Made by a program: the position numbers and the translations under genes. This document shows, in pieces, positions 24,014 through 26,776 of a stretch of 34,144 bases of DNA (position 1 is its first letter; every line of letters starts with the position of its first letter). Under the pieces are notes generated by a model. That model was not told where the DNA came from, did not search any database, and saw only the letters and a list, made by a program, of their open reading frames with translations. Source of the stretch: Phycisphaerales bacterium (GTDB taxonomy: Bacteria > Planctomycetota > Phycisphaerae > Phycisphaerales > UBA1924); contig JAGQOC010000005.1 in assembly GCA_020427745.1 (NCBI GenBank), forward strand, positions 1-34,144, given 5' to 3'.

Positions 24014-24672
24014 ACGAGCACGAGAACCCGCCGCAGATGTACCAACCGCCCGGCATCGACACCCGCCCGACCTCCGGGCTCGCGGTGACCTCGATGGTCT
24101 TGGGGATTCTGTGTTTGTGCTTCGGGCCGCTGGCGTTGGTGCCGTTGATCCTCGGGATCATCGGGATCCTGACGACCGGCGCCAACGGGCAGAAAAAGGG
24201 GCAGGGCTTCGCGATCGCGGGGACTTCACTCGGCGCGGTGGGGGTCCTTGGGTCATGCCTGTCGGTGGGGATCCTGCTCCCGGCGCTCGGCAAGGCGAGG
24301 CAGCAGGCGCAACTGTTGATGAGCCAGACGCAGGTGCAATCGATTGTTCAGGCGTGCATCGTGTATGCGGACAACCACGATGGCTCGTTCCCGCCCGTTG
24401 AGGGATGGGAGCAGGCGCTCGTGGACTCCGGTCTGATCGGGCAAGAGATCTTGGTCTCTCCACGCGAAGACGGCGATGGTGTGTCCTACATCTACCTCGG
24501 CGGGCCGCACGACTACGACGCGAGCCGGATCATCGTGTACGAGGATCCGAAGCATGGAGAATATATCGGGGTCGTCGTGGGCTTTGCCGACGGGCATACG
24601 GAGACGATCTCGCCCCGCATCTTTGAGGAGATGCTCGCCGAGCAAGTCGATGCCGCGGAGGCGCAGCCGTGA
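24010..24672 (+). CDS. DUF4190 protein with pseudopilin-like outer domain
   Basis: A 220-residue protein. A proline-rich start leads to a DUF4190-type helix pair (about residues 22-85), then LLPALGKARQQAQLLMSQTQVQSIVQACIVYADNHDGSFPP and a C-terminal VVGFADGHTETI. These are features of planctomycete pseudopilin-like proteins (H-X9-DG class): the ALGKARQQA helix, the short-helix start of the soluble domain and the final DGH. A true prepilin cleavage site is not visible. It overlaps the next gene (TGATG), so the two are coupled. Confidence 0.78.
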   Translation: MNEHENPPQMYQPPGIDTRPTSGLAVTSMVLGILCLCFGPLALVPLILGIIGILTTGANGQKKGQGFAIAGTSLGAVGVLGSCLSVGILLPALGKARQQAQLLMSQTQVQSIVQACIVYADNHDGSFPPVEGWEQALVDSGLIGQEILVSPREDGDGVSYIYLGGPHDYDASRIIVYEDPKHGEYIGVVVGFADGHTETISPRIFEEMLAEQVDAAEAQP

Positions 24673-25265
24673 TGTTCCGATCGCTCGCCGCAGTCATCCC
24701 GATCCTCGCCATCATTCTCGCCGGCTGCTCGACACCCTGGAAGGACCACTACACCGGGGCACCGATCGGGCATTACGAGCGGACGGACGATGTCGAGATC
24801 CGCGAGGTGCCCTGGCAGCGGGTCGATGAGGCGCTGCGGTACATCGACGAGCAGCGGGCGGCATCCGACATCCACTGGTCCGAGTGGTCGCGTGACGACA
24901 AGTTCGAGGAGCAGGGCGTGCTGCTGCGGGCGCTGCAGATCTCCGGGGACCCGCGCGACATCATTGTGCTCGGGCGGAACGTGTTCCGCTCGACGGACGA
25001 CCTGTCGCCACAAGACGGATCACTGGCGAAGTTCGCGCAGTCGATCGGCGCGGACTACGCGGTCTGGTCGGCGCACTATGTGGGCAAGGCCGACAAGGTC
25101 GTGCAGGAGCCGGTCCATCGCTCGGGGATCTCGATCGGTGTGCACGGCGGGCACGGTCATCACGGACACACGATCGGCGGGTGGGACGAGACGGTGTATG
25201 TCCCGGTGGTCGTCGAGGCCGACGAGTACGCGTGGGTGGTGTACTACCTGCGCTACCGGGACTGA
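24672..25265 (+). CDS. Putative lipoprotein with His/Gly-rich loop
   Basis: A 197-residue protein starting MFRSLAAVIPILAIILAGCS, with lipobox LAGC and Cys near residue 18. The mature part is acidic, and contains VRNVF-like GRNVFRSTDDLS and a His/Gly cluster GVHGGHGHHGHTIGG near residue 155 that could bind metal. Family not recognised. The ATG shares a base with the stop of the preceding gene, and GTG-ATG is possible at 24669. Confidence 0.75.
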   Translation: MFRSLAAVIPILAIILAGCSTPWKDHYTGAPIGHYERTDDVEIREVPWQRVDEALRYIDEQRAASDIHWSEWSRDDKFEEQGVLLRALQISGDPRDIIVLGRNVFRSTDDLSPQDGSLAKFAQSIGADYAVWSAHYVGKADKVVQEPVHRSGISIGVHGGHGHHGHTIGGWDETVYVPVVVEADEYAWVVYYLRYRD

Positions 25266-25269
25266 TCGC

Positions 25270-26730
25270 TCACCCGTCCTCGCCGAGTGTTTTCTTGCGC
25301 CGGAGGATGTGATGGTAGTGCTGGGCGAACCGGTGTGATTCGTCGCGGACCTGCATCAGCAGACGCAGCCCGGGGTTGTTTCTGCCGAGCTTGATCGGTT
25401 CGTCGGAACCCATCGTGTAGATGAGCTCTTCCTTCTTCGCAAGCGAGACGACCATCGGCGGCTGGACATCCAGCTGCGCGAACGCCTCCATCGCGGCGTG
25501 GAGCTGCCCGAGCCCGCCGTCGATGAGCACAACATCCGGGTACAGCTCGTGCCCCGCGCCGGCCTCGCGGTAGCGACGGGAGATCACCTCGCGCATGGAC
25601 TGGAAGTCATCGTTCGCCCGTCCGCCGGGCAGGTTGCGGAACGATTTGATGCGGAACCGCCGGTACTCCTGCTTGAACGGGCGTCCGTCAACAAAGCAGA
25701 CCTTGGACGCGACGGTCTCGTTGCCCTGCAGGTGCGCGATGTCGAAGCCCTCGACACAGCGGATGGGCTTGTCGAGCCCGAGCGTCCGTTGCAGGCTTGC
25801 GCACGATTTCAGCGGGTCCTGGTAGCCGATCTCGGATTCGGGTTGCCACTGGTCGGATGTCTTGGCCCGTTCGTCGAGCTTCTCGATCGCGAGGAGCTGG
25901 TCGCGGAGTGTCGCGGCGCGCTCGAAGTCCAGCTCGCCCGACGCCTGCTCCATCTCGGCGCGCAGCTCGCGGATCATGGTCGATCGCTTCGTCTTGATGA
26001 ACCGCACGAACCGGTAGATGTCCTCGCGGTACGCGTCCTTGCTGATCGACTCGTTGCACGGTGCCGTACATTTGCCGATGCTCGCGAGCAGACACGGGCG
26101 GAAGAACCTGTTCTTCGGATCGCCCTCGATGATGTCGAGCGAGCATGTTCTGTACCTGAACACGCCCTGCAGCGCCTCGACCGCCCGGCGGAGCGAGCCC
26201 GGCGAGGTGAACGGGCCGAGAATGGTCGCGTTGGTGTAACGCGGATCCTTGCTGCCGTCGTTCTTGATCCCCGTCGGGTTGCGTGAGACGAACACCCGCG
26301 GGTAGTCCTCGCCCATGGTCACGATGAGATAGGGGAAGGTGCGGTCGTCCTTCTGCGCCGCGTTGTACGCCGGGTGGATGTCCTTGATCAGCCGGTTCTC
26401 GGCGAGCAACGCCTCCCATGCAGTGTCGGTCGTGAAAGTGTCGAACGAGTGGACTTCGTCGAGCAGCTTGTTCTTCCACGGCCCCAGATCCGTCGATGGC
26501 AGAAAGTACGACCCCACGCGGTCGCAGAGCCTGGACGCCTTGCCGACATAGATCACGATCCCCTTGTGATCCTTCATGAGGTACACGCCGGGCAACGCGG
26601 GGAGGTTGCGTGCATCGCTGTGCAACCGCGTCATGCGCGCGGCGCGCGTCTCCGTCCCCCAGGGCGGCGGATCGCTCGAGGGCGCGTGCCCCTCATCGTC
26701 GAGAAAAGATGTATCGGGATCGTCTGCCAC
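25270..26730 (-). CDS. uvrC: Excinuclease ABC subunit C, short form without helix-hairpin-helix
   Basis: A 486-residue nuclease for nucleotide excision repair that cuts both sides of a lesion. GIY-YIG domain: LPGVYLMKDHKGIVIYVGKA; then RNRLIKDIHPAYN-type motif, a Cys cluster (CLLASIGKCTAPC), the UVR motif GELDFERAATLRDQLLAIEKL, and the RNase H-like domain (EGFDIAHLQGNETVAS, VVLIDGGLGQLHAA, RDESHRFA) with its acidic residues and His. It stops about 14 residues after RDESHRFAQHY. Usual UvrC (about 600 residues) continues with a double HhH domain, which is missing. The convergent gene ends 4 bases away, so there is no lost piece nearby. GTG at 26730 follows TACAAT by 5 bases. Confidence 0.93.
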   Translation of the reverse strand: MADDPDTSFLDDEGHAPSSDPPPWGTETRAARMTRLHSDARNLPALPGVYLMKDHKGIVIYVGKASRLCDRVGSYFLPSTDLGPWKNKLLDEVHSFDTFTTDTAWEALLAENRLIKDIHPAYNAAQKDDRTFPYLIVTMGEDYPRVFVSRNPTGIKNDGSKDPRYTNATILGPFTSPGSLRRAVEALQGVFRYRTCSLDIIEGDPKNRFFRPCLLASIGKCTAPCNESISKDAYREDIYRFVRFIKTKRSTMIRELRAEMEQASGELDFERAATLRDQLLAIEKLDERAKTSDQWQPESEIGYQDPLKSCASLQRTLGLDKPIRCVEGFDIAHLQGNETVASKVCFVDGRPFKQEYRRFRIKSFRNLPGGRANDDFQSMREVISRRYREAGAGHELYPDVVLIDGGLGQLHAAMEAFAQLDVQPPMVVSLAKKEELIYTMGSDEPIKLGRNNPGLRLLMQVRDESHRFAQHYHHILRRKKTLGEDG

Positions 26731-26735
26731 GCCTG

Positions 26736-26741
26736 ATTGTA
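26736..26741 (-). promoter_or_regulatory. -10 hexamer of leaderless uvrC
   Basis: TACAAT on the minus strand, 5 bases before the GTG at 26730, and directly behind the terminator of the gene before (26747-26776). Confidence 0.6.
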
Positions 26742-26746
26742 TGGAC

Positions 26747-26776
26747 AAAAAAACACCCGCCAGCAAACGGCGGGTG
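26747..26776 (-). terminator. Intrinsic terminator (minus strand)
   Basis: Perfect 8-bp stem (26769-26776 with 26754-26761; CACCCGCC and GGCGGGTG on the minus strand), 7-base loop, then seven T. It ends the lipoprotein gene 27 bases after its stop and separates it from uvrC. Confidence 0.95.

Follow-up and report, generated by a model that had tools for sequence, protein, structure and literature searches.

The helix-hairpin-helix (HhH) domain is taught as a part of UvrC, and as one that E. coli needs for the 5' incision. A study by Verhoeven in 2002 is said, by its title, to report that this domain "contributes to the flexibility", a wording in keeping with a domain that helps but is dispensable. 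The architecture of the orthodox bacterial UvrC is given in an excerpt of PMC1564403 as C4-UvrBb-EndoV-HhH, with an N-terminal GIY-YIG domain. According to an excerpt of PMC9426483, both HhH motifs are required for UV survival in E. coli (from work cited there), whereas the HhH region of Helicobacter UvrC is down to one motif or absent; in H. pylori, whose UvrC has a single HhH motif, a mutant with a disrupted hairpin shows nearly normal UV tolerance. We recognised no description of an HhH-less UvrC in planctomycetes in the titles, abstracts or passages of the open-licence full-text literature.

The gene analyzed here lies in a stretch of 34,144 nucleotides of a Phycisphaerales bacterium (contig JAGQOC010000005.1, positions 1 to 34,144), hereafter the window. 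The uvrC ORF, identified by ORF reading, Pfam and NCBIfam, occupies positions 25270..26766 of the minus strand, with its stop codon at 25270-25272. Its start may be placed at a TTG at 26766 (498 aa), at a GTG at 26730 (486 aa), which was the start used in the initial annotation, or at 26697 (475 aa), from which residues are numbered below. The protein scores above the cut-off of the NCBIfam uvrC equivalog TIGR00194 (340 bits, cut-off 285.45). It had first been described as keeping both nuclease domains and the UVR motif, and this is confirmed by Pfam, by the residues and by the fold match; the C4 cysteines are kept as well. The GIY-YIG nuclease domain (residues ~21-117; 26347..26637, minus strand; VIA-align and residue counts) carries Y39, Y50, R60, E100 and N112, which align with E. 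coli UvrC. Its Pfam match is below threshold (14.9 bits, cut-off 22.6), with the catalytic residues nonetheless in place, and its fold matches 1yd6/1ycz with Z 13.8-14.4 (VIA-align). The C4 cysteine cluster C185-x16-C202-x7-C210-x3-C214 (26056..26145, minus strand; sequence pattern and alignment) aligns with C154, C166, C174 and C178 of E. coli. The UVR motif, i.e. the UvrB-binding segment (residues 241-273; 25879..25977, minus strand), gives 41.9 bits with Pfam PF02151 (cut-off 21.5). The RNase H endonuclease domain (25324..25791, minus strand; Pfam, alignment and VIA-align) gives 158.2 bits with Pfam UvrC_RNaseH_dom (cut-off 22.3) over model positions 1-158 of 159, and its D319, D364, D393 and H455 correspond in the alignment to D399, D438, D466 and H538 of E. 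coli. An identity as Cho was rejected: the RNase H domain is present and the NCBIfam Cho model gives 32 bits for a cut-off of 367.

The C-terminal end is different. After the catalytic His of the RDESH motif the window UvrC has a tail of 20 residues (25273..25332, minus strand), compared to 72 in UvrC of E. coli K-12. The missing part is therefore ~50-60 residues long, i.e. the (HhH)2 domain and its linker, and not ~100 as initially estimated. No HHH family was found in the window UvrC with Pfam up to E 1, and an HhH profile was negative on the tail as well as on the downstream frames. The window protein is therefore an HhH-less variant of UvrC and not an orthodox one. The initial claim that the domain is truly missing, rather than detached into a neighbouring gene, holds, no HhH being found downstream in any frame; the convergent neighbour ORF (24669..25265, plus strand; ORF reading) does end, as had been noted, 4 bases from the uvrC stop.

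The window belongs to a draft genome of 263 contigs, a point in favour of a sequencing error, a frameshift or an assembly artefact at the 3' end of uvrC, but the same end is found throughout the genus. UvrC was present in 20 of the 21 genus genomes searched, the remaining one (G012) being 56% complete, and 20/20 of these proteins end 18-20 residues past RDE[SA]H. The comparison of UvrC lengths with relatives, proposed in the initial annotation, thus gives one short end for all 20 UvrC-bearing genomes; it lends no support to the view of the HhH absence as a peculiarity of this genome, and the combination of full-length UvrC in close relatives with a 3' error here was not what we found, the relatives being short too. 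The domain is also absent from 94/94 readable genomes of the class (among the matches listed). When the 900 nt downstream of 210/210 short genes, including 80 loci of named organisms and L183 (see below), were searched in six frames, nothing resembling HhH was obtained at E < 1. Since the end is the same genus-wide and no remnant lies downstream, both faulty assembly and a gene split are rejected as its cause, and the probability that the 3' end is an artefact is negligible.

The distribution of the short form was then considered across the phylum. UvrC was gathered from 209 genomes, 208 of them with a readable 3' end, and the tails were scored against a profile of the HhH domain for which 74 clear tails had been used. 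L183, in which a contig end cuts UvrC and which is from the sole genome of its family, was left out of the HhH counts. The absence in the window's class, Phycisphaerae, extends over 25 families for the 94 readable genomes (among the matches listed); before the removal of L183 the class counted 95 genomes and 26 families, none with HhH. In the rest of the phylum, HhH is present in 79 and absent in 35 of 114 genomes (among the matches listed), figures drawn from a sample of best-scoring matches plus some lower ones, which leans towards well-matching UvrCs. The corresponding 68 families, among the same matches, fall into 42 with HhH only and 26 with none: mixed families number 0. A search of named organisms with the peptide DE[AS]HRFAQ gave 80/80 short UvrCs, a result that is not evidence of prevalence as the peptide favours short forms. 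The tail past RDExH counts at most 25 residues in 82 of 129 short proteins and reaches 115 in the longest; some short UvrCs have a long low-complexity or basic tail instead, still free of HhH. Separately, planctomycete-like UvrCs were seen in records labelled Cyanobacteria (L237), Vicinamibacteraceae (L257), Bacteroidia (L297) and Limnohabitans (L299), which are probably mislabelled metagenome bins.

A UvrC tree of 98 rows was built with the C-terminal signature and the tail left out. A branch with SH-aLRT 100 splits 52 HhH-less rows from 44 HhH rows. Two further rows, L095 (G335) and L126 (G321), are HhH-less yet nested among the HhH rows, and are probably independent truncations. The same split is recovered in a tree with outgroups, for which 3 of 8 outgroup UvrCs were used, since 5 gave no match to the cut motif; in this tree a long stem (0.66 changes per column) leads to the HhH-less rows. 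All 8 outgroup UvrCs have HhH, their C-termini being judged by eye, and as HhH also belongs to the orthodox UvrC in the excerpt of PMC1564403, loss is the natural direction of the change. The deep ancestor in which it would have occurred is common to the window's class and to many other planctomycete lineages, with a single origin within the sampled phylum and the two isolated truncations as exceptions. We therefore favour, with good confidence, the reading that the window protein is a UvrC orthologue the (HhH)2 domain of which was lost once in a deep planctomycete ancestor, and which presumably still cuts on both sides. The monophyly of UvrC in the phylum has weak support in the rooted tree (73), so that the short UvrC might also have been acquired by transfer from an HhH-less lineage outside the sample.

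Every residue that either incision is known to require is invariant in the short proteins. D319, D364 and D393 are present in 129/129 short proteins and H455 in 128/128 (one row is gapped); on the GIY-YIG side, Y39 and Y50 are found in 126/126 short rows reaching them, and E100 and N112 in 128/128. The GIY-YIG Arg is equally invariant in the short rows that reach it and the four cysteines are nearly so. From these conserved parts, UvrB would recruit UvrC via the UVR motifs, the GIY-YIG domain would make the 3' cut and the RNase H domain the 5' cut; the closest experimental backing comes from the Helicobacter data given above. One could suppose from E. coli, in which loss of HhH is reported to affect the 5' incision, that an HhH-less UvrC makes the 3' cut only and that another nuclease cuts 5'. 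We consider this highly improbable: the RNase H residues are invariant over 25 families of the class and 26 other families, and a dead domain would lose them. The AlphaFold2 model of the window UvrC (mean pLDDT 78.7, pTM 0.41) matches T. maritima UvrC 341 to 496 (2nrz) with Z 22.3, and this match ends with the RNase H part. The model also covers the whole of 2nrr, a chain limited to the RNase H domain (139/139 residues, Z 20.4, VIA-align), which indicates that the window UvrC ends about where the self-standing catalytic domain ends. No HhH fold is named in the list of fold matches of the model, an absence which does not constitute a test.

The helix carrying the catalytic His differs between the two forms. 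The residues following it read FAQxYHH in the HhH-less clade versus FAIxYHR in HhH-bearing UvrCs, the clade signature being Q459...H463, 4 and 8 residues past H455 (25309..25323, minus strand; alignment). Position 459 is Q in 119/129 short proteins and I/V in 72/79 HhH proteins; position 463 is H in 123/129 of the former and R/K in 79/79 of the latter. The outgroups have I at 459 and R/K at 463 (8/8). A continuous helix is predicted from 442 to 474, with pLDDT < 50 from residue 465, and as the two positions lie 4 and 8 residues on in it, they are predicted to point to the same side as the catalytic His. The I-to-Q and R-to-H changes, one and two helical turns past this His, together with the long stem branch, suggest that this 5' active-site helix may have been remodelled when HhH was lost; we infer that Q459 and H463 may compensate for the lost domain. 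L095 and L126 keep the ancestral FAI/FAL..HR helix and lack the Q/H signature, which is therefore not tied to every loss.

Another place where a substitute could be found is UvrB. DNA holding might have moved to this protein, a K/R-rich disordered tail behind its UvrC-docking UVR motif replacing HhH. We searched UvrB in 108 distinct genomes and obtained 94 usable pairs with a closed UvrB end. Excluded were G006, G236, G321, G336, G353 and G467 (no match), G348, G355, G468, G531 and G577 (gene cut), G335 and G371 (where the adjacent UvrC had been picked automatically; the UvrB end of G335 was read separately) and G052 (its UvrC is not in the table). With a basic tail defined as a stretch past the UVR motif that has at least 20 aa and a net charge of +4 or more, 37 of 56 HhH-less genomes have one compared to 8 of 38 HhH genomes (30/46 versus 8/37 by family), and UvrB of the window genome itself has a tail of 37 aa with net +6. 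The difference gives a Fisher p of 2e-5, a value not corrected for kinship. However, 19/56 HhH-less genomes are without a basic tail and 8/38 HhH genomes have one, the tail is short in G335, where the truncation of UvrC is recent, and the tree shows 18 changes of the trait. As HhH was lost once among the 94 genomes, there is a single independent comparison, and the link with the UvrB tail is a lead, not a result; that the tail took over from HhH appears doubtful. We hold as equally doubtful the wider scenario of a rewired repair, in which UvrC would lack (HhH)2, the helix would be remodelled, the basic UvrB tail would hold the DNA and UvrB, not UvrC, would position the 5' cut. K/R-rich UvrB tails (L346-L372, L434-L463, L464-L505) are frequent in HhH-less lineages and occur in some HhH lineages too. 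We also observed that ~36-52 residues are inserted in frame between profile positions 327 and 328 in the UvrB of G011 (C1:31037-33142), G023 and G052; this insertion is found in the window's family, but G110 of the same family is without it.

The C4/[4Fe4S] loop, reported in work cited in PMC9426483 (excerpt) to be involved in complexes of UvrC with dsDNA, was also considered. It is x16 in 118/128 short rows (L183 counted), the two isolated truncations, taken apart, being x11, and it is x11 in 69/79 HhH rows; in 6 HhH rows the automatic pattern read it as x27, with an extra upstream Cys in the printed examples. The longer loop was rejected as a substitute for HhH: it is not specific, since an HhH-bearing Parabacteroides outgroup also has x16.

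Finally, the missing function could be provided by another protein. The initial annotation had suggested a search for a second uvrC, which gave no HhH-bearing second copy in the window genome, and for a separate HhH protein or cho: no UvrC-type HhH fragment was found, but a degenerate UvrC-like paralog was. It had escaped a search of the genome with the window UvrC, which returned one match, and surfaced only with a closer query. This gene (L341; G000:C224:3964-5112 of the window genome, minus strand) lies between FabA-like and mannose isomerase-like genes, and by eye seemingly has the same neighbours in G011. The paralog (relatives: L023-L030, L345, L384-L413) is ~380-450 aa long, with a degenerate GIY-YIG, conserved C4 cysteines and a UVR-like segment, and without recognised RNase H or HhH domain; in our own reading of 17 aligned sequences the second GIY-YIG tyrosine is missing. 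As a partner making up for the missing HhH it has in its favour its presence in 98/150 class genomes at E < 1e-19 and the neighbours seemingly shared with G011. Against this, 75/76 genomes from elsewhere in the phylum, 32 of the 76 being HhH-less, gave no separate match at E < 1e-20, and the one match outside the class is a frame of 568 aa in G476. Within the genus 7 of 21 genomes, some of them incomplete, have no match, the copy of G013 is a remnant with stops, and the paralog diverges far more rapidly than UvrC does, sharing 21-41% identity with the copy of the window genome. Being largely confined to the window's class, it was rejected as a general compensator, and we regard a role as partner as very unlikely; it is possibly a catalytically dead, UvrB-binding regulator. 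HhH might also act in trans from a separate gene, e.g. a small DUF4332 double-HhH protein. The window genome does encode, at a site not linked to uvrC, a stand-alone DUF4332/HHH_5 protein (L034, G000:C172) that contains two HhH-like segments, and other HhH proteins which by eye are RuvA-, DprA-, DNA polymerase IV-, LigA-, ComEA- and MutY-like. But none of the HhH matches of this genome is on the window's contig, and DUF4332 is not known to be a partner of UvrC; such a supply in trans has little chance of being correct.

We thus return to a UvrC orthologue that lost (HhH)2 in a deep ancestor. Its repair mechanism may differ, as was first suggested. With its incision residues invariant, and given the H. 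pylori hairpin mutant (excerpt of PMC9426483), the dependence on HhH seen in E. coli is not automatically transferable, which suggests that the HhH piece is not needed everywhere for UvrC-type repair. A clade without HhH and with both active sites is a natural experiment, in which what positions the 5' cut becomes directly testable. It also contradicts the view, expressed in the excerpt of PMC9426483, that a reduced HhH is unique to Helicobacter. The HhH of Helicobacter UvrC is likewise reduced or absent, but Helicobacter belongs to another phylum and its HhH is variable within one genus, whereas among planctomycetes a whole deep clade of many families is without it. The T. maritima chain 2nrr is an RNase H chain free of HhH with a similar end, but it is an artificial fragment produced for crystallisation. 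Cho and Cho-like proteins, in the excerpt of PMC1564403, share GIY-YIG and C4 with the window protein, and the Cho-like ones a UvrB-binding segment in addition, but Cho is without the RNase H domain that the window protein has; it is the UvrC-like paralog that resembles the Cho-like proteins. Compared with the canonical UvrC of E. coli, T. maritima and B. subtilis, the window protein has GIY-YIG, C4, UVR and RNase H (EndoV-like) in the same order and with the same catalytic residues; it differs in the absence of (HhH)2, in FAQxYHH for FAIxYHR and, within Planctomycetota, in a C4 loop that is 5 residues longer.
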